Shown here: one piece after another, positions 1,942 through 63,195 of the stretch | How positions within the stretch are numbered: position 1 is the stretch's first letter | How the letters are laid out: every line of letters begins with the position of its first letter | From: Hirudo medicinalis | Lineage: Eukaryota; Annelida; Clitellata; Hirudinida; Hirudinidae | Length of the DNA stretch: 64,000 bases | Direction: 5' to 3' | Assembly: GCA_011800805.1 (NCBI GenBank) | Contig: MPNW01000101.1 | Span: 426,114 to 490,113 of the forward strand | The notes under the pieces: generated by a model | What the model saw: only the letters and a program-made list of their open reading frames with translations | Told to the model about the DNA's origin: nothing | The model's database searches: none | Translations under genes and position numbers: made by a program

Positions 1942-4900
1942 ATGGCCGGGAGGCTTACAAACTCACGTCGCAAGAAAGATGAAAAATCTGGAAATGGACC
2001 ACAACTGCGGCAGACGAAACTCGTTTTAAGAGTTACAGCTAAACGGCTCACTTATACTGCCAAAAACACAAATTTGCGTAAGTTCGGAGAGCAAACGTCC
2101 ATCCTTCAAAATGTAAATTTGTCTGAGACCATCTGCTTTAAGTGCCCAGAAGTTAGTAGTACACAGAAAGTGGATGCTATTGCAAGCGATAAGGATATTC
2201 CTTCTACTACTCAATGCAAGGACACAATTTCACCCGACAGACTCGTTTCCAGACCGAGAAGAAATGTTTTTCAAAAAAAGGTGAAAATGTTTTTATTAAT
2301 GAATCTTCTCTTGCATTTTCTCTTGGAGTTTATCGAGCATTAACTGAATATTAAGTGATCTGAGAAGAAGAACATTCTTTTCAAACTCAACTTTATTTTG
2401 CTTGAATGAGCAATTTAACCTTTATTTTAAGAATGAAAGATGGTTTTCATTTTAGACTGAGGCATGTGGACTTTCTTGGAAAGAGGAAACAGAACTTAAA
2501 AAAGCTTTATATGCTTCGCTGCAAAGGAAGAAAGTCAAGTCTGATTCAAGTAATAGCTACTCCAATGTTGGAACTTCAAGGTCTGATGCTAATATGTCAG
2601 ATGATTTTTATGCTAAAAGTACACCATGTGGTGAGTACTAGGTTAAATAATTTTGTTAAATAATTTTTGAGTGACATTGAATTAATTCTTCTGTATTGTT
2701 TTTATGTGTATGTGTTTTTAGGATGCACCTAGGATGATTATTATATTATATCACACTGTCTCTGGTCTTCAAGAACATATGTTTTCCTCTTTGAAATGGT
2801 TTTTATCAAGTGCCACACGCTTCATCTAGGAATTGAAAGAAAAATAGCATTAATATGAAACAATATTAGACTAAAGAAAATATTGAAATTATCATATGTG
2901 TAGCTGCTACTTTTGTTTATTTAGTTGTTGAAGTGCTTAAAATTCTCAAAAATGTTTAAAGATTTGCTGAATATGATGTTTAAGACCCATAATTTTGTTC
3001 AAGGATACCTATTTCCGTTAATACGCTTCGTGTTTGTTCATTTAAAAACTGTGCCATGAATTAATTATTGAGTCATATTATTAGCTTACTTAGGTCAATA
3101 TGAATATCATTTAGTTACCACGTATTCATTTCATTTTTGGTGTGGTTGCTTGTGAGCCATTGTAGGAGATTGGTTGTAGGAGATATGCAGTTAGGATATC
3201 TTATCATATTTCTGAATATGGGCATTTGTTTTTGGCATTTGAATCTTTGGAGAATAAAAGTGATTGAAACCTACTTTTGAAGGTATCAATCATCAAACAC
3301 TTGAAATGTTATCTCCTCAAGCATCGAGGTTGGAGGGCAAAAAGATCTCGGACGCTCGTGTCGTGCATTTCAACAGAAGTCGAAGCAGGCAACATTCACG
3401 CATTTGTGTTAATTACAGAATTTGTTAAGTTAAATTGGGTAACCTTTTTTGTTTCAGTGGCTTGTACAGAGCTCAAAGAAAGTTTGCATGCGGTTCTAAA
3501 CCTGGAGGTGGTTCTTTGGCAAACAGGAGAAGATTTCTGAAGAAAGTTAATTGTTCGTTACGAGATAACTTGCAGAATGTTCCCTATACTGAAGATTTCA
3601 TAGATTATCTGTGCCTCAGAGGTGATTCTGGATTAATTGAAGTTGCTGAATTTTTTTCTGATATCTTTGGATCTGAAAACAGGTACTTCATTCATGCCTG
3701 AAAGCTTGAAAATATTCGATAAGATTCTCTGCACGAACGTCAAAACCCACGCGGAGACTCCTTCGACGAGCAGTTCTTCCGATCCCCCCACGGTTCGCGG
3801 AGGTGCCGGGAAAGCTGGCGACGTTCGCAGGAAATACGACGCAACGGAGACGAGGGTATTGCTCGAAGGGAGCTTTTCATTCGATAACCGCGCTCCATTC
3901 ATTGTCTTTGTTCGTCTAGAAATCTGGTCTTAAAAACAAAGATCATACAAACACCGACAAATTCTCCAAAGTCGACTGCGAGGAGTTGCCTCCTCGAGAG
4001 AAGCAGAGGCCTCTGACAAGATCGTTCACCAAATCGGAAATACCCGACGGAAAAGTTTCCGGCGAAACGTCGTGCGCCGCGTTCCCCGGCGATCGCTCCG
4101 AGGCGGATTCGTCGGAGAGCCGAGAATCAGATGATGATGACGATGTCGATGATGACGACGATAATGATGGTGATGAGAGTGAGGGACTGTCTGAGGTATT
4201 ATCCTGTTTTGTGAAGGATGACTTCCCTCTTTTTTATAATGGGGATTCTATTATAAACCATGGTGATGATGATTGTGATGATGATGATGATGATGGCGAG
4301 TCCGGTTGGATTCCTGTCGGCAGGGAATTCTCTCGGGAAAGATCTGATGATCCTCTGTGCAACTCAGACGACAAACTCGATCCTGCGGAGGGTCGTTGCA
4401 CCGAGCAGTGTGCGGATGTCGCCTTAGATGGTCGGGGTCGTGAAGAGGGGACCCCTTTTGGTGAGAGTGATGATGATGATGATGATGATGAAGAGGATGA
4501 CGCGGGGGATTTATTTTGTTTAGAACTCATGGGCAAGAATGCTTGTGTTAAGGATGATTCGTGCATTTACGAGATGCAGTGCGATTCCAACAACAACGAA
4601 ATCGGAACTTGTTTCGGAGCTGTGAACAAATGTGTTGGAACTGATGCTGCTGACTTTTTGCCCAATTCCAGCTTTGAGACCGGCCCGGCATTTCAAAATC
4701 ACTTTCCGATCGGTAGAGTCCTTCCTCGTAACGATGTGGCTTCTAATTTTGATGTCGGAGGCTCGTCATCTTTGAATGATCTGGGAGGTTGCATGCTATC
4801 GATACCCCACGGTCTTCCAGTAGTCCAGTCCCCCTTCAAATGCATAGTCCCTGCAAGAGATAAAGTCGTTCGAGATAGCCAGGTTCTGCTGGCCAATATT

Positions 4901-6415
4901 CCCATGGTCGGCATGACTTCGTTGTCTTCTGTGCTCATGATTCCGCCAGTTCAAAACGTGAACTTCATCCAGTTTGCCTCTTCGCCTTCTGTCTTTGCGT
5001 CGTGGCAGGGCAGCGGCGGCAGTTGTCACGCGTGCAGACATGAAGGACCTTCTGTTCTGACTCCTGCAAAGATGTTTGGTTCATCCCCGGTCGAATTTTC
5101 TCCTAGAGACTTGTCTGTTGATGGCTGTCACAGCTTGAGAAAAATTGCTCCCAAGATATCTACAGAAAGATTTAACAGATCTTTAGAGTTTAGTCTGCCT
5201 TGCCAATCCTGCATGCCCATGAACTCGTATGAGAAACAAAACGTACAACTGATTGATGGAGCACAGCCTTGTGTTTCCGATGTGAGTTTGCAGATGATGT
5301 GTAGTGCATGGTGATGGTCGTGCAGCATCCTTAACTTTTGCGTTCTCAAGCCTGATTCTGTTTTTAGTCTACCTGAGAATAATGTTTTACATTTCAAAGA
5401 TAATTTCTCTTTATTCTGTACTCATTAAGTTAAGTCACTTAAGTGTCATACTAGGTAAATTTGATAGATTATGTTGCATGTTACCACATTAATGTTTTAG
5501 CTTAATTTATTTCACAGTTGCATTTGATAATTTGGATTTATTTCTGTTTCAGTTGTATTTGGAACAAAACGATAATATAATTAGGAGTTTCTTCAGGAAG
5601 CAGAGACGGAAGGCATGCAGGAAAAGTAAATAATGGCTGAAATTGTAATTTTAAATTCAAATTTTTAGGTTAAGCCAATCAAAGCATTTTCTTTGGTGTA
5701 CGAGTTGGCTCGTATACCGAAGGAACGTAAGTTGCAATTGTAATGATACTGGCTTACAATACTGCCAGTCTTTCGAGTAGGCGATGTACACGAATAGTGA
5801 AGTACTGGTGGGGCTATGTATTTGTGATGCTTTATGTGTTGGATTATTCTTGTTTTATAAGCCACGATATTTTTAGGAGCGACTGAAGAATATTCTTCAC
5901 GCACTGTCGACGTCTCGGAGAGTGCCGAAGATTCCTTTCGGAAAGACGCGGGCGAGGCTCGACTCCAAGAACCAGTTTCCACCATAAGTCTCAGGTCTGG
6001 AAAAGTTGTTAGTGTTGAAGACCAGGGAAAAATTCATCCAAAAATCACTTTGGAAAAATGCGTGACTTCCGAATCGTCGAGTCCCACCGACCGTCGGAGA
6101 ACCGAGGACGTTGTTGACGACGGAGTTGTCGACAGAAGTGCGTCGAAGAAGAACTCGTCGAAGAAATTCCGACGTTTCGGTCGCCACGAGGGGCTCGGGA
6201 ACAAGAGGAGAAAACGAAGGCCTAGCGTGGAACCGACCGACAAGAGTTGGATCAGGAGCGGGTTGAAGAGGTGCAACGAACTTTCTGCCGACGGAAAACC
6301 GAGCAGACCCACGACGAGGTCGAGGACGCTGGCATCCATGGAGGACGAATTGACAAGAGCTAAGATGGAGTTCGATGTTGATGATGAAGAGGATTATGTT
6401 GACAATGACTTGTGA
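1942..6415 (+). CDS. JARID2: JARID2-like PRC2 accessory protein, N-terminal region only
   Basis: Hand-built exons are 1942-2280, 2456-2630, 3283-3328 (least certain), 3458-3621, 3683-3855, 3920-5281, 5553-5625 and 5877-6415. All phases agree and give about 956 residues ending in TGA. Three motifs match JARID2 in order. The first is RPRRNVFQKK followed by LSWKEETELKKALYASL, the N-terminal segment linked to ubiquitin-H2A binding. The second is AQRKFA with Lys near residue 195, matching the human K116 site that PRC2 methylates and EED reads. The third is TEDFIDYLCLRG running into TSFMPESLKIF, matching the SUZ12-contact segment. A long Asp-rich, low-complexity part follows, then a basic Arg/Lys-rich C-terminus. 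No JmjN, ARID, JmjC or zinc finger is visible before the stop or in the 3.8 kb after it. I infer a nuclear PRC2 cofactor. Identity is strong; completeness is the open question. Confidence 0.8.
4124..4500 (+). repeat. Coding GAT/GAC trinucleotide tracts (poly-Asp) in the JARID2-like exon
   Basis: Three clusters of GAT/GAC codons (about 4130-4175, 4262-4296 and 4466-4502) encode Asp/Glu-rich runs in the large sixth exon. They read in the gene's frame. The same triplet is a common noncoding microsatellite elsewhere in this window, so slippage-driven expansion is the likely origin. Confidence 0.7.
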
Positions 6416-7522
6416 ACATTTTGGTTATTATTTGCAGATGATTTTGGGGTGTATTATTTGTTTATTTATGAAACTTAACTTCATCAACCAATGATTAAGT
6501 GACTATAATAGTTGTTATTATTTGCAAAAGTGTTCAGAAACCTTTTCATCCTAGTTTTGATTAGTTTCATATCTTTGCAACTAACAATCTTGTTTGAAAG
6601 CCTGCATCTAGCATGCTATTTGAAGTTGTTTCTTGAAGCCTTTGTCTTTGTGATTTTGGAAATATATGATGACATGCAAGTTCATTTTTAATGTTGTTGT
6701 TACAATTTATTGATCGCATTAGTTTTCGTGCCAAATGGATAGGATTTGTATTGAGTTTGAAATTATTTTCATTGATTGGTTTCAATCACTACAAGTCTGG
6801 TATTGTGGGGATACAATCATTTTTTATGTGGGCAGAATGTTTTTTGCAGCTTGGTTTTGACAGGAATTCAACAGCAAAGAGAGAGGATATCTGGGTACCC
6901 TAACATGGATATTCTAAGGGTGGTGGGTGTCAACCCCCCAATGTTTGGCTGGTGAGAAGCAAACGAGGAGGGCATCTCATCGTCAAGAAGAGTTTGAGGG
7001 AGGGTTGCTTTTGCTGAAAAAGCTGAATTGATACCCCTGAAATAGCTGCTGTTCTCATTTTCAAAGGAAGAAAAATAAGTTTGAGGACCACCAGTATAAG
7101 GATATGTTCTCACCAGAGGTGCTCGAGGTGGGTGGTTTTCGAAGGCTTATCAGCTTAGAACCTGAAAAAATGGAATAAGTGAGCATCACAGCGTTAAAAT
7201 AACCCTAGAATCAGTAATATTCAACGTTAATTTCAACCAATGAGATGGAAGTGTCAGTATTCTTTCAGCTTTTAAAAGGGAGTCGTGTTGTGAAGGTTTA
7301 TCTGCTTTTCTAGTCTCAGGAGACATTCTCTTGTTTTCAGCAGTTGACATAAGTTGGAAGCCTTAAAAAGATTGTCTAAATAAGTGGTTATTGGTTACAC
7401 TTTCACAGACTTGACATCGGATAAAATTAATTATTTTTAATTATATTTAATTCTCCGCATCGCCGGATTTACCCAGGTGCAGCCTGGTGCAATTGTTTGC
7501 ATTTATCCTTGCAACTATAAGA

Positions 7523-7553
<31 letters not shown>

Positions 7554-8868
7554 AATAATAATATAAATATGAAAAGATTATTGTAATACTCTAACAATAT
7601 AATAATAATATAAATATGATAATATTATTGTAGTATTTTTTAATTCTTTACTTCAACGTAATGTCGCGCTAAAAATGACATCCAGGAAATGATTTAGAAA
7701 TGCATGGCGACATCAAAGGAATTATTAAATACATCGAAATCTGGTTGTCCTTAAACATAAATTTCAATTTATACAAAGTTATACAAATATAATTTTTCGA
7801 GTACATTTATTATTTAAGCTATTTAGTAATTAAATTTTCAAAATGCGATGAAACGGATATTTACTTAATGTATTTATTAAATTTATAATTTGAAGAATAT
7901 TCTAAGTTGCTAACGAAGCATCACAAGGCCAAGGTTTTTATGTTGGGCCGGAAATGATTTATTTCGTCACTCGTTAGTTAGTTAGATCATTACAAAGGAT
8001 CGATGCAGAGTTTCATTAGAGTGGCTTAAGTTTAACAGAACTTCAAGACCAAACCAAGTCATTATTTCTTCATATTTATCACGATTTACAGTTTTAAGTT
8101 ACAAAAATCGGTTAATAATCAAAAGAATCGTTATTTAAATATTAATTGAAATAAACATTACAGATAACTTTTACGAATTCAAACACGAAAAAGCTGTAAA
8201 CCAAAGGGAGGTGGCCATCTTGAACATTGATGCCATCTAAATGATTTTTCACGGAACTTTGAAATTCGTAACCAAATTCGTCACGGGTCATAATATTGGA
8301 ATTGTTCGAATAGTGAATGAAAAGCATGTTCCCACGCGTGAATTGACAGAAAAACAAGGATTGGAAAGTGACAGGAAGTAAAACGTCCTTGTTTTGGGCT
8401 TCATTTGCATAAATTTTCAAATTGAATACATAATGAATGGTGGATATTAATTCAAGCGTTTCATTCCAAAACAAAAGTTGTATGTTCGAATGCTTCAAAT
8501 AATGATAAGTTGATAAGTTCAACTCGAAATCTGAAATATTCGGAAAGTTATCTTAAACAAATTGTCAGGGTCAAACTCCTCAGTTTTGAAACTCTGCAGA
8601 CTTCCAGCCTCACTTAACGGAGTTAATGAATCATTTGCATTTGCGCCAGAATTTGGTGCATCATGTCTTCTCTTACAATGTAAAACAGAAATACGCGTGT
8701 GTGTGTAGCTGTAACAAGAACACCTCCCAAACTGTGAACAGTAGCGATAAGTAATCCTTCTCTATGCCATTCCTAGGTCAACTATTTTCAGTTTTACAAC
8801 TTTCACCTTTTTCTAAATCTCAGACGAGCTTTAAACTCGAGAACTACTTAAAGCGAGGAGCGTTGTCA
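6416..8868. other. Gene-poor spacer with AAT microsatellite
   Basis: This follows the JARID2-like stop codon. No JmjN, ARID or JmjC coding exon is recognisable on either strand. An (AAT)n-like tract lies at about 7528-7620. One 126-codon open frame on the minus strand (8142-8522) is annotated separately. The rest is AT-rich and I see nothing else in it. Confidence 0.5.
8142..8522 (-). other. Unassigned open reading frame, 126 codons
   Basis: A continuous frame of unusual length for such AT-rich DNA. The product would be rich in aromatic and hydrophobic residues. I recognise no family, signal peptide or domain, and I see no clear neighbouring exons. It could be a decayed gene or element fragment, or chance. 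Confidence 0.15.
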
Positions 8869-8995
8869 TCCCGCGTGGTCTAATGTTTAAGACTTCGCTC
8901 TCACGATGGCAGCACGAGTTCGAATCCGGTTGCGGGAGCGCCGTCCTAATCACCCAGTTCTTTGAGGGAAATAACTAGCTGAAGGACGTATAATA
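8869..8995 (+). repeat. tRNA-derived SINE (tRNA-Glu-like head)
   Basis: Positions 8869-8937 can be drawn as a near-complete tRNA cloverleaf. TCCCGCG pairs with TGCGGGA as the acceptor stem. TGGTCTAATGTTTAAG looks like an A box and GAGTTCGAATCC is a near-perfect B box. The 5' TCCC start and the TGGTCTAATG arm are most like tRNA-Glu. The sequence runs on without a tRNA end into about 50 bp of unrelated body and an ATAATAAT tail, as expected of a SINE rather than a functional tRNA gene. The length (about 69 bp) and mismatched anticodon arm also argue against a working tRNA. Confidence 0.6.
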
Positions 8996-9808
8996 ATAAT
9001 ATTATAAATAACTATAATATATTAATATAATAATAAATTATAATATATACAATAAGATTGTTATATAACTGTTGTTGTGAATTTAAATGTAATTGTTATT
9101 TTTTTATTTATTATTATTAACTAATAAAATCGAAACAACGCAGTGAAGTTTGTTTCTGGATCTCCTTAAATTAATCTTTTGATTTCTTGATATCGCACAA
9201 TAACTGCACAATAGATGATGCTTGAGAACTTTAAGTGTTTGCTGTTGTTGTGTTATTTTATTGTTGTCAAAATATTGTTATTATTTGTGATATTATTATG
9301 TTTTATTATTATTATTATTATTCTTGACGTTTTTCACCATATTCATTACAAATGAAATAATTCTAATGATTTAAAGTATTTGAAACCTTAAATCGACAAT
9401 TTTAAATGAAAGTTATGTTCCGACATATCACTTATCAATAACAATTTGCGTCGGCCAGCATACGAATCCATGTTGATAAACAAAAAATCAAGACAGTCTA
9501 TTTATATAGGCCAACCATGGTTCTTCTTTGATGCCTATATTTAGAAACATTACATTTATTTTTGCTTCGTAATTGGCTAAACTCATGTGACATGTTCGAG
9601 TCTTTCATCGGAGTTCCTCTTGACTATGACGTCATTCGTTTCTTAAACGCTGATTGGTTCTTGGAAATATTTTATGAATTTAATTTCGAGTTTGAGTTTT
9701 CCAAGTTCTTGAAAAATGAATAATTATTACATTCAGAATTATAAAATAACAATTTAATGATAATATTATATTTATGGAATTGTGATCGCAATTAATTTTA
9801 AGAAGACG
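8996..9808. other. AT-rich spacer with ATT/AAT microsatellites
   Basis: Repeated ATT/AAT tracts occur, for example at 9300-9325. I see no coding exon or RNA gene here. Confidence 0.45.
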
Positions 9809-10024
9809 TTATAAGTAAATATTACTGGGATTATTCCCAGTATATATATATATATATAAATTNCTTCTATTCATCACTAGGGTGGTGTCATCCATGAACG
9901 CCTTCAACGAAGGCATGTACAAACCCTTACCTAAATGCGCCTCTGGAACATTAGACCCAACTGCGTTGAGTAGAAGTTGCATCGCTAGTATGAAAAGGGA
10001 GGGGGATATCGCGCACCCCATCAA
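9809..10024 (-). mobile_element. Non-LTR-type reverse transcriptase fragment
   Basis: The minus-strand frame encodes a GCAISPSLF block followed about 30 residues later by FMDDTTLV. These fit the loop before, and the catalytic (F/Y)xDD core of, a retroelement reverse transcriptase. Only this palm fragment remains: no endonuclease, thumb or RNase H is visible, and an ambiguous base (N at 9863) interrupts the 3' side. The left edge is a TA dinucleotide tract. It is a dead copy lying just upstream of the first SUCO exon found. The exact clade cannot be set from this fragment. Confidence 0.7.
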
Positions 10025-10096
10025 GGAGTTTGGGCCGAAACGTTCGGTGACGGGGGCACTCCTCTGACGATTCCCTGTCGGTACGCTCCGTGGTAG
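10022..10096 (-). repeat. Repeat segment shared in inverted orientation with 42752-42826
   Basis: This stretch flanks the upstream side of the reverse transcriptase fragment. Its reverse complement matches the plus strand at 42752-42826 with only scattered differences (shared blocks such as CGACAGGGAATC and CCCAAACTCCTT). Similarity stops abruptly at one end, next to the RT motif. Confidence 0.7.
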
Positions 10097-10221
10097 GAGT
10101 TTCTCATTACATTATATCAATGAAGTTGTTTAGTAATATGTGCTACTCTCAGAGGCCTTTATTGAAATGTGAAATATTCTTGAGAGATTTTTCAAGCACA
10201 AAACTGTGTTCTTCACAACAG

Positions 10222-13200
10222 GTTCACAGTAGAACTGTGTGAGTCCATACAGGTGCAGTCAGTGGAACTCGGGAACATGGAATTCTTTTCCTCGCTCCCA
10301 CAGTCGTTTGACATTCACGTCAGCGAAAGGTTAGTTCGTCGAGCCGTCGCGAGCGCGTTGCTGTGCGGCATTGTCGTTTACTTCTGTTTAAACGAACCCT
10401 TTTGTGGCCGGCAGATCCGTTGGCCGTGTTAACGATTATTGATTTTTTATCGTTTTATAATCTCATGATATCATTGGTTATCTAGGTTTCCAGTGAAAGA
10501 GTGGATCAATGTCGGGACTTTCCTGGCGAAGAATGAGCGAACCATCCAAAGTTTTCCTGTTGAAATGAGCCTCACCTACGTCAAGTACATCAGGGTTGAT
10601 GTCCTCTCCCACTATGGCAGCGAACACTTCTGTCCCCTCAGCATTCTCAGGTTATCATTTATGAACTTTCAAACAACGTTTTTAAAGTGTTTTTAATTAT
10701 CTTATCTGCATAGTTAACTGTTTAGTTTAACTTTTGTGTTTTTCATTGTTTTTTGATGATTAGATTTGTTTACTTTGCCTTCAAATTTATATTTACTTTG
10801 TCAGTTAAAAAATTTCTTCATTCAGAATAATTTTGGTGTATGAAATCTTCTCAGGGTTTTTGGAGTGTCATTGGACGACGATGACGAGGTTGAGGTCAGC
10901 CAGGACGAGACGGATTACTCGGACATCATCGACGTAGTCCCTGTCGATTTGGGCAGTCGGAAGGCCAGCAACCTATTTTCCAAAGCCACAGGTCGATGCC
11001 CCTGCTGTTTTGTGCTGCTGATATTTTTACTGTGTCACTTTTGCCAGACTTTCAATTATTGCTCTTATTGTAGCCAACATTTTAATTATAGAATCTTCTT
11101 TATTAATAATTAACCATTGTTCTTATCATTGTTGTTATTGAGTTTCTTGTTATTTACAGACACAGTAATAAGCATCATGAAGACAGTCCTGCCCTCTTCT
11201 GGTAGCCAATCACAGGACATCACCAATGGCACAGACAACCAATTTCAAGCTATGAATACAAAGCACAGGTACTTAATACTAATATTTTTGTACTAATATT
11301 TTGTGACTCTAAATTGTTTGATGATTGTTTCAAGAATTTTTGCATTTTCACTTTGAACTATTTTTAATTAGCTTATAATTATTCATCTTTTGTTATTCAA
11401 CTATTATTGTGAATGGTAATTCTTTCAGCAATGCTGCTACTGAAGACAGGCTCAAAATTCCTTTAAAAGGTAGGTTTACAACATCCTGGCCCACCATGTC
11501 TGGTTGTTAAGTTTCCTGTCTTTAAGGCCAAGGCTTGGTCGCCAACCAAAACACAATTGTGCATCGGGATGTTATTGAACTGTCATTTGCTTTTATTTGT
11601 ACAATTCATCTCTGTGCAAATTTCATTCACGCTGAGAAGATTTGTAAGAAGGATTGTGATTTTTTAAATAATCTTTGTCTATGAATATCCAATTATGCTC
11701 TCAACGTTTATTTTCTGTTTGCAGCACTAGAAATTATTAATATTTCCATTGATTTTCAGAGGACAATCTGGACAGATGCCTTATTGATTTTGAATCTGTG
11801 CCCCAACACCACCCCAGAAGAAATTCACTTTACACCGATCCATTCTGCAGTTACTACAGACTTCTCATTGATAGGCCATTTCTGGCAATCTGTCCTAAAC
11901 TCGTGGACAAATATTCCACTGCTGTGCTTAAAAATGCTTCAACAAAAGAGGACAAGGGCTCCAAACCTTCATTCACCAACAAAGACAATGTTTTTGAATT
12001 AAATACAAATGAGGATCGAGATGGTAATGCCAATGTTCAGACATTGAATAAAGTGTCATCAACTCTAAATGATAAATCTGCTTTGAGTGAAGCAGATGAT
12101 AAGACCTCCAATCAACAATTAGAAGAAGCTGCTAAACTGGCTTCAGAGACTGGCATTGATAAATCAATTGTTTGCAATGAATCACTTGTTAAAGAGAATA
12201 CTCTTGGAGATAACACTGGAGGTTTTTCTGAAGAAAATTCCAGAAGTCATGATTTGGATGGCTCAAAAAAGCTAGCAAGCAATGCATCCAATGCCTCGAA
12301 GAAAGGGGAATCGATCGTTCAGTCCGACGTAAATGGTGAAGGTGGAGATGTGTCAGTCAATCAAAAAAAGGAAGTTTCTAATGAAGGGACTGCTGCTCCA
12401 AGATTGGAACCTCTGAAGGATTACGAATTTGATGCCTCAAACCTCGATGATGTCACTTATCAGAAGCTGTCATCCAAAGGAAAGGAGTCCGTTTTTGCCA
12501 AGCTGAAAAATCGAATCAAAAACCTTGAAATCAATCTAAACCTCACAAACAGGTTCAAGAAGCTTTTGCTATCAATTTTGCAACAGTTATTTGCACTAGA
12601 ACCAAATAAATTATGCTAATGGTTCATGTGAGTCACAATTTATTTAAATGCAGATACTTGGAGGAGTTGAGCCAAAGATATAAAAAGCAGACAGAAGAGA
12701 TGTACACCTCCCTCAACAAGACTATCTCAAAACTCATCAACACTGCCAAGTCTGCAGAAGAAAGGGTCAGTTGATTGAAAGTTAGATTTTGAATAATTGA
12801 CCGAACTTTTTTTGTCGTTGCCAGGATCTGAGGCAACAGGACAAGATTCAAAGTCTTGAAGTCAGATTTTCCAACCTCACAACTGTGTTCTCTTCACTTC
12901 ATAGGGCCCTTCAAAATGTACATTCGCAGGTGATGCTACTGTGTCTTATAATGACATACACTGGGCCATTACAATAACAAATGGAATATAATATAAACAA
13001 CTTCAAGGAATTAAAATTTTCAGTAGTGAAAATATTAATGGTAGGTCCTGGAGAGACATCTGATGATGATGGCAGTGGAGTTTGCACTGTTTTTTGCCCT
13101 CCTGACCTATTTCCATGGTAACAGAGGACAGCCTATGGATCTCCAATCCAGGAGATCTTCAGCCCCAGCCATCCCAGGAAAGGTTGTGACATCCGATCCA

Positions 13201-60886: not shown

Positions 60887-62736
60887 ATGATTGTTACGAC
60901 ATGCTGTGAGTGCAGAAACATCATCAGGGACGAATACATCTTTAAAGTTCTCGACAGAAATTGGCATGCCTCTTGTCTCAGATGTTGCCTCTGCAAGTCG
61001 GTGCTCAGGGATAGATGTTACGCTAAAGATGAGCAGGTGTATTGTAAAGATGACTTTTACAGGTGACTGAATGTTCCATGTGATTTGTAATTGATTGCTG
61101 AATTTTAAACATTGTCCAATCGAAGTTTAAAGCATGTTAATGTTTATTTTGAAAATGAAATATTTGGTAATAATGTAATAATGAGGAAAGCAAAGGTGAC
61201 TGAAATTAAAAACATCTTTATTGATTATCGTGGTTTTTAAACTACTTGTAATATAGGGAATTGAATATTTCCTATTGGTTGTAATTTTCATCGTTATGAA
61301 ATCATCATCACCATCATCAAAAACCTTAAAACACCGTTAAATTTCACCCAACAGAACATTAATGGTAGTGTGTGCAGGTTGTGGCCTCAAAATAGAACCC
61401 AAAGACTTTGTGAGGAAAGCGAGACATAGCATTTACCACGTTAACTGCTTTTCCTGCGCCATTTGTCGAAAACTCCTCAACACTGGAGAAGAATTGTATC
61501 CGTTGGAAAATGGAAAAATCATCTGCAAAAAGGATGCCATTGCAAAGGAGAGAAACATTCACAATCCTGGTGAGTAATAGAATGTAATCTGCAAGCGAGA
61601 TGTGACTAAAATGAATAAATGACTGTAGGAATAGATGTATTTATGCAGTATTATGAAGTATTTATAATATATATTTCACGTACAAATATTTCTTATGATT
61701 TCTTGGAATGACATTTACCTCAACTCGAATAATCGGGACCTGAAGAATTTTACAAAAGTTGATTCATTCACTTTGCACGCCACTCTTTATGATGTCACAT
61801 TGTGCTTGATGACGTTAGCATGTGATTCGGAGTCAGTCAGGCGTAGTATGAGGGCTGTTTCATTACATCGTAGAAATATGAATTAGATTTAAAGTTCCTC
61901 ATTTCAAGGTGGATTCAATGGATTGCGTTAATGTTGAGTGATGTAATCGGCATCAGCCTTACGATTCAATTTACTCCTGAAATTGAGACTATTTGTTGAT
62001 GATCGACAAAAATTCTACAACAGAAAAATTATAAACTTTATTCATGATTTGTAATCGTACTCATGTAATATTTAATATAATTGTATATTTATAATTATAA
62101 AATAGTGGATTATATCAAGCTAAATATTAATTTATATATTTTGAAGGCGTTGATAAACATAGTTTTGAGGCACATAATTCGGCTTTAATCCGTGAAGTCG
62201 AAGCTAAAAGCTTCAAGAAGATCAGTTTGACTGGTTCCAGAGATGACCTGACGGAATCGCAGGTTAAAAACAAAGAACATCCAGCTGTTGAGTCCACTTT
62301 TGACCCTCTGGATGAAAAACACAAATCGTCAAAATTTGACGCAAATCTCAACGAAAATTCTCTGGAAGAACTTTTCCAGATGAACAACAGCGACGGATCA
62401 ACGGGTTCAAACACAGACTTTGACGGTCCTTCGCAAGTTGCAAAACCTGCCTGTCACTCCGCAAACCTATCCCCCGAATCCGCCGATTCCAGTGACGAAG
62501 ACAAGGACAATAACAACGACAAAACGACCGACGATGCCAACAAGGACGAAATCGAAAGCGAAACAGGCGGGATAATGCAAAACGGAGTAGGTGCTAAGAG
62601 GAGAGGACCAAGGACCACCATCAAAGCCAAACAACTGGAAACTCTGAAGAGTGCTTTTGCTGCCACTCCAAAGCCAACCAGGCACATCAGGGAACAACTT
62701 GCTCAAGACACCGGATTAAACATGAGAGTCATTCAG
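60887..62736 (+). CDS. LHX1/5: LIM-homeobox transcription factor, LHX1/5 (Lim1/lin-11) class, 3' incomplete
   Basis: Exons are 60887-61062, 61355-61569 and 62147-62736; phases agree. Exon 1 encodes LIM domain 1 ([27 protein letters not shown]). Exon 2 encodes LIM domain 2 ([36 protein letters not shown]). Exon 3 has an acidic Ser-rich linker and then the homeodomain start [17 protein letters not shown], followed by [20 protein letters not shown]. This is close to vertebrate LHX1/LHX5 and contains the class-specific [13 protein letters not shown]. Exon 3 stops after NMRVIQ at a GT donor, the usual place for an intron before WFQNRR. That last homeobox exon was not found in the remaining 1.26 kb, so the gene continues off the right edge. 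It is a nuclear developmental regulator, mainly of neurons. Confidence 0.95.
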
Positions 62737-63195
62737 GTTTGATGCATTTTTGTATAATATTTGTATTTGTTGCCAATAAAGTTAAAATTTCATTTAAAAA
62801 AATCTGAATTGATAAAATTTAACATGAAAAACTTTTCATGAAATCTCAAGACATAAAATCTTGCTAGAATGCAATGCGACATTCCTACTGCTTCTTTTGT
62901 GGTTCTTAATAACGTTGATGGTGACAACAAGAGGATTCCTTTCAATAATCCCTCGATCAAGAATATTTATCAATAACAGTAATAACCAGTAACGTGATGA
63001 CGATTATGATTTTGCGTTTTTTATTAAAAAAAAAATAATCTGATTTTTTTTTATAATAATAGCAAGTAATGTTATCGTATTCATGGTGACTGACTTACAA
63101 GCCAGGCCGCAATAAATCTTGAGAGTTGTAGGCAAATGTGCTCTACAAATGTAACGATAACAATAACAAGCGATATAATTAGTTAGTAATTAGAA
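62737..63195. other. Intron of the LHX1/5-like gene
   Basis: Begins at the GT donor. No WFQNRR-encoding exon is seen. AT-rich with poly-A and poly-T runs. Confidence 0.6.

Follow-up and report, generated by a model that had tools for sequence, protein, structure and literature searches.

A predicted JARID2-derived gene of Hirudo medicinalis confined to the PRC2-facing half, and a diverged JARID2 locus on a second contig

Does Hirudo medicinalis carry the N-terminal half of JARID2 (Jumonji), a subunit of PRC2.2 (PRC2, Polycomb repressive complex 2), in a gene of its own, and if so, where is the Jumonji half? The question is raised by a 64,000-bp stretch of a 133-Mb, 1557-contig draft assembly (contig C101, 426114–490113; the whole stretch is referred to as the window), in which an initial annotation placed a JARID2-like gene that has three PRC2-linked motifs and stops before any Jumonji sequence, and that would have arisen by gene fission or through a moved or lost 3′ half. 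We refer to this gene (window 1942–6415, plus strand) as gene A, to a second, diverged JARID2 locus on contig C28 as gene B, and to the Jumonji-containing part of JARID2 as the C-half.

JARID2 motifs in gene A

The exons of gene A were derived from open frames and splice-site signals, and the window was searched with a JARID2 profile built from 43 of 46 gene A homologues and run without filters. The features are:

1942–2280 (+), exon 1: contains the initiation codon and SRPRRNVFQKK, from the translation; aligned together with exon 2 to human JARID2 residues 4–43
2456–2634 (+), exon 2: GLSWKEETELKKALYASL at the position of the ubiquitin-interaction motif (UIM); 3′ end uncertain (2630 or 2634); JARID2 profile E 1.7e-10
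3458–3621 (+), exon 3: RAQRKFACGS, the EED-read lysine peptide, and YTEDFIDYLCLR, the SUZ12 motif; JARID2 profile E 1.6e-11
3683–3855 (+), exon 4: G-TSFMPESLKIF, which completes the SUZ12-motif region, and beyond it a tail with no recognised homology; the PDB alignment extends to query residue 240
3920–5281 (+), exon 5: extended tail region with runs of acidic residues, inside a 464-residue open frame, from the translation
5553–5615 (+), exon 6: predicted from splice-site signals and frame
5669–5726 (+), exon 7: predicted from splice-site signals and frame
5877–6415 (+), exon 8: basic stretch, acidic C-terminus VDDEEDYVDNDL, stop TGA at 6413–6415
6416–10278 (no strand), interval after the stop: the profile detects no JARID2 C-half here; a single N at 9863

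The three motifs are present in order as claimed, with SRPRRNVFQKK in exon 1 (which ends at 2280), the UIM-position sequence from 2456, the EED and SUZ12 sequences within 3458–3621, and the completing segment from 3683. A PDB search with the first 285 residues returned seven matches at E≤10, each carrying the name Protein Jumonji/JARID2, and the best of these (6wkr, E 7.9e-10) aligns RPRRN...KKALYASL and RAQRKFA...TEDFIDYLCLRG in order; the same 285 residues align in order with human JARID2 residues 4–43 and 81–177. The profile matches the window at model positions 38–76 and 126–185 with the E-values listed above, and weakly at 13–34 (E 1.2).

Protein database searches spanned relatives of ~527–1676 and 212–675 residues, longer JARID2 proteins lying outside both ranges. 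Within them, 46 proteins of similar length match gene A at E≤0.01, of which 45 carry JmjC, JmjN, and ARID Pfam domains, and the three best come from a centipede, a millipede, and a sea spider. These 46 and four shorter relatives, many of them isoforms or close relatives of one another, were compared by regular expression: AQRKFA and [KR]TEDFL are present in 50/50, AQRKFAQ in 42/50, and the UIM stretch in 45/50. Judged by sequence only, gene A has RPxRN and a UIM, together with the heptapeptide AQRKFAC (six of the seven residues of AQRKFAQ) and a TEDF..(F/Y)LC(L/F)RG motif in the form YTEDFIDYLCLRG; this last motif is taken, after the initial annotation, to be the SUZ12 contact.

The gene ends where it was said to, at 6415, in all eight spliced models, which have eight exons each, differ in boundary choices, and comprise 953–959 codons including the stop (predicted product ~958 residues). 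The 464-residue frame of exon 5 exceeds every one of 1000 dinucleotide shuffles (maximum 279 residues; 0/1000 as long) and is therefore not expected by chance; among the shorter frames, 184 residues was reached in 1/1000 shuffles and 135 residues in 2/1000. We considered that the gene might end at a conserved linker motif and dropped the idea, as a literal [RKS]RPxTR occurs in just 3/46 homologues. The product has no Pfam domain, and neither Pfam nor the profile finds JmjN, ARID, JmjC, or a C5HC2 zinc finger in one gene with the N-terminal motifs. On these grounds gene A is predicted to be JARID2-derived and is not a complete JARID2.

The search for the Jumonji half on contig C101 and elsewhere

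Downstream of gene A no Jumonji half is apparent. The C-half profile search on C101 spanned 396114–510113 (114 kb, with 510114–551418 outside it): in 396114–490113, the window plus 30 kb upstream, nothing scores below E 0.45 except the two N-terminal motifs, and 490114–510113, which contains 1336 N, gives no match at E≤1. Genome-wide Pfam searches likewise list no JmjC, ARID, JmjN, or C5HC2 match on C101. The claim that these domains are missing from gene A and from the following 3.8 kb was therefore borne out, and a gene comprising the N-terminal half is supported by the motifs, the stop at 6415, and the absent C-half signal.

The same annotation had proposed checking whether the C-half exists elsewhere in the genome, and it does, such that its outright loss from the genome is contradicted. 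Comparison of Pfam-listed Jumonji/ARID loci with JARID2 proteins (tblastn) identified, among the matches listed, gene B at ~76.7–81.6 kb of C28 on the minus strand (the C-half part). The JARID2 profile matches it in order at model positions 688–712, 711–740, 739–781, 782–824, 834–866, 866–888, 937–969, 970–1006, 1006–1069, 1056–1102, 1108–1167, and 1166–1205, covering 81.4–76.7 kb overall; the best piece has E 4.9e-21, and four pieces are weak (711–740, 834–866, 1056–1102, and 1166–1205; E 0.02–0.2). Sixteen exons, delimited by eye at AG and GT signals, all have open frames, and the joined C-half matches Pfam JmjC (1.8e-22) and ARID (1.5e-8) and includes the zinc-finger region. JmjN has no Pfam match in the joined C-half, and a JmjN-like sequence is seen by eye in exon 81614–81460. 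Against the PDB, the joined C-half scores best with human JARID2 (1.5e-68, 235 bits), far above KDM5A (3.6e-20, 75 bits), such that the ARID and JmjC are of JARID2 type and gene B was rejected as a KDM5; within the window, neither Pfam nor the profile finds a KDM5 PHD finger with a KDM5-type JmjC.

Gene B also has an exon at 82867–82458 with FHTKFRAVRKFPSKSG, an acidic stretch, and FFTEDFINFLCYR, followed directly by a splice donor. It was identified by eye; the JARID2 profile gives no match there at E≤10. Its EED heptapeptide is degraded (AVRKFPS, 4/7) and its SUZ12 motif altered (TEDFINFLCYR). The profile finds no UIM in C28 76583–87744, the region upstream of that being outside the search, and a doubtful UIM remnant is seen by eye upstream of 82867; gene B accordingly does not present a UIM together with AQRKFAQ.

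Could gene A simply be longer than modelled, with a donor before the exon 8 stop splicing to distant C-half exons and the N-only product being at most an isoform? N-only products are predicted elsewhere: Patella vulgata isoform X2 (319 residues) has the three motifs and no domains, as gene A does, and two similar transcript-derived JARID2 proteins (P0049 and P0050, 476–477 residues) show the same three motifs and end, before any domain, in a basic C-terminus that is alike in both, making them candidates for a conserved N-only isoform or a retained intron. These differ from gene A in being predicted isoforms or transcript open reading frames, for which separate-gene status is only putative. Against a longer gene A, the profile is silent in C101 396114–510113 although it detects the strongly diverged gene B, and the Pfam searches list none of the four domains on this contig; we regard it as unlikely.

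The genome-wide searches list 20 JmjC, 11 ARID, 7 JmjN, and 4 C5HC2 matches. Contigs C306, C17, and C269 were rejected as the missing half because their best match is KDM5A, and C190, C357, and C331 because theirs is KDM4; C428 was also set aside, being weakly KDM5-like (best match Os05g0196500 at 2.3e-10, KDM5A 3.4e-9, and no JARID2 among 23 listed). The seven JmjN loci thus comprise four KDM5-like and three KDM4-like loci, and none is a normal JARID2. The JmjC contigs C517, C113, C27, and C634 and the ARID-only contigs were assessed by eye, by tblastn, and partly with the profile. Gene B itself is listed for JmjC and not for ARID; a third, diverged JARID2 could therefore be missed, and another copy elsewhere in the genome is conceivable.

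Several side observations concern these loci and their neighbours. The KDM5-like loci lie at 31.7–37 kb of C306, 86.4–79.9 kb of C17, 68.2–63.3 kb of C269, and 14–17.4 kb of C428 (weak), and four KDM5-like plus three KDM4-like loci make a larger Jumonji set than expected for a 133-Mb genome. On C28, long open frames at 84225–85741 (+), WD-repeat-like and SOCS-box-like by eye, stand head to head with gene B. Directly 3′ of gene A, the following gene, also on the plus strand (from ~10.3–10.5 kb; window 10279–10990), carries a Sad1/UNC domain (1.3e-15) and is probably SUCO-like. Between them, an open frame at 9809–10111 (−) resembles by eye a reverse-transcriptase fragment and contains the lone N at 9863, a possible assembly join. 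A homeodomain exon lies at 62131–62739 (+; Pfam 5.3e-11), and its start is reminiscent of LIM-homeobox Lhx1/5.

Duplication or fission as possible origins of the two genes

Window exon 3 reads GLYRAQRKFACGSKPGG ... YTEDFIDYLCLR and has its donor (after CLR) at the same place as the donor of gene B exon 82867–82458. Genes A and B both have an aromatic residue before TEDF, where 50/50 homologues have K or R, and both have TEDFI, where 50/50 homologues have TEDFL. Profile coverage is nearly complementary, with model 13–185 in the window and 688–1205 on C28. By the shared exon and residues, gene B is a predicted paralogue of gene A and not a bare C-half. The explanation that we favour, with moderate confidence, is that JARID2 was duplicated in this lineage, gene A then losing its 3′ half and the N-terminal motifs of gene B decaying, and that gene A would act as a PRC2 cofactor by the mechanism outlined below.

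Simple fission, with one ancestral gene breaking in two and the 3′ part transferred to C28 but no duplication of the whole gene, would account for the complementary profile ranges, and the retained exon 3 counterpart could be mimicked if the breakpoint region had been partly duplicated. However, C28 does keep that counterpart, the donor positions coincide, and the two genes share derived residues, because of which duplication with complementary loss fits better; we consider simple fission quite unlikely. Of the original proposal of gene fission or a moved or lost 3′ half, what stands is the gene confined to the N-terminal half, and fission is right only in part.

An assembly error, by which the real 3′ half was dropped or misplaced, has to be weighed in a draft of 1557 contigs with a 12-kb run of N in C269 and an N at 9863. 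It is very unlikely in our view, as 3.4 kb after the stop is ungapped and the C28 C-half has its own exon 3 counterpart and so is something other than a 3′ half merely displaced from gene A.

Several points weigh against duplication followed by complementary loss. The exons of gene A were described as phase-consistent, and the models do join in frame, but the sole in-frame option at the exon 2/3 junction is a weak donor following 2634; GTGAGT at 2631, which looks the better donor, breaks the frame into exon 3, and a small exon may therefore be missing there. Exons 6 and 7 were placed from splice signals and frame only. A score based on synonymous codons, with a small training set of 733 codons, gives −41.6 bits for gene A and −27.2 for exon 5 against +14.0 for exon 8, leaving coding unsupported. 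In the drafted model of gene B, 11/15 junctions are in phase and 4/15 out of phase; an alternative donor would bring one further junction into phase, with three remaining out, and gene B may conceivably have decayed to a pseudogene. In the protein database, none of 7994 scored candidates matched gene B at E≤1e-10. When 18 C-halves were placed in a tree, its terminal branch was 2.76 changes per column, versus a median of 0.44, and the best two of 17 for gene B are the two myriapods; with a branch this long the placement is untrustworthy and the duplication cannot be dated. The search for PRC2 core subunits covered SUZ12 alone, whose VEFS box is encoded on contig C2.

A proposed role for the gene A product

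The product of gene A is likely, by analogy with JARID2, to be a stand-alone PRC2 cofactor. It would dock on SUZ12 via the TEDF segment and be methylated by PRC2 at the RKFA lysine; the methyl-lysine would then enter the aromatic cage of EED and activate EZH allosterically, while the UIM would steer the complex to ubiquitylated H2A. These steps would require no JmjN, ARID, or JmjC. Gene B would supply the function of the Jumonji half and activate PRC2 weakly or not at all.

Published accounts of JARID2 are consistent with such an arrangement. In an embryonic stem cell assay, H3K27me3 deposition was fully complemented by N-terminal fragments of mouse Jarid2, whether or not they included JmjN; the same work defined the UIM, without which ubiquitylated H2A was largely no longer recognised (PMC5133711). 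Human Jarid2 109–450 stimulates PRC2 in vitro, K116 once methylated binds EED and has a stimulatory effect on PRC2, and the seven heptapeptide residues were identical in all homologues analysed (PMC4352895).

Alternatively, the gene A product could be a competitor that occupies SUZ12 and EED without activating PRC2, or gene A could be a functionless, decaying copy. The tail without recognised homology and the negative codon score agree with this, but the frame is open across ~958 codons and the PRC2-facing motifs are better preserved in A than in B; we give it a small chance.

Gene A shares with JARID2 the UIM position, the AQRKFA peptide, and the TEDF..LCLRG motif in order, and differs in lacking JmjN, ARID, JmjC, and the zinc finger, the JARID2-type ARID/JmjC half being in gene B. 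In the cleaved human form Delta-N-JARID2 (PMC6356158), the PRC2-binding part is likewise separated from the Jumonji part; this occurs by proteolysis of one protein, however, and keeps the C-half only, a tagged N-terminal part having gone undetected in HaCaT lysates. The laboratory fragments Jarid2 1–530 and 109–450 (PMC5133711, PMC4352895) also lack the Jumonji half while retaining PRC2-facing motifs, and have effects on PRC2 or on H2AK119u1 nucleosomes, but these are engineered, and 109–450 also lacks the UIM, whereas gene A is a genomic gene. PALI1 and EPOP resemble it as cofactors outside the PRC2 core, EPOP being mostly unstructured and PALI1 bearing a PRC2-methylated, EED-bound site, and differ in being vertebrate or mammalian proteins with a separate origin (PMC8864842). 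Among the titles and starts of abstracts listed from the open-access literature, we found no N-half-only or gene-level split JARID2; a C-half-only form is the cleaved one of PMC6356158.

We tentatively suggest that in this lineage JARID2 may have been divided by evolution, with the PRC2-recruiting and -activating part and the Jumonji part in separate genes that are expressed and selected independently. A species with such a split gene is of interest because the function of the JARID2 Jumonji domain is stated to be unknown in a 2022 review (PMC8864842) and because the N-terminal part alone restored H3K27me3 deposition in a mouse embryonic stem cell assay (PMC5133711). If the division is real, each half could be removed alone, the N-terminal half would be seen working as a stand-alone PRC2 cofactor, and the C-half would have a selected role apart from PRC2 activation.

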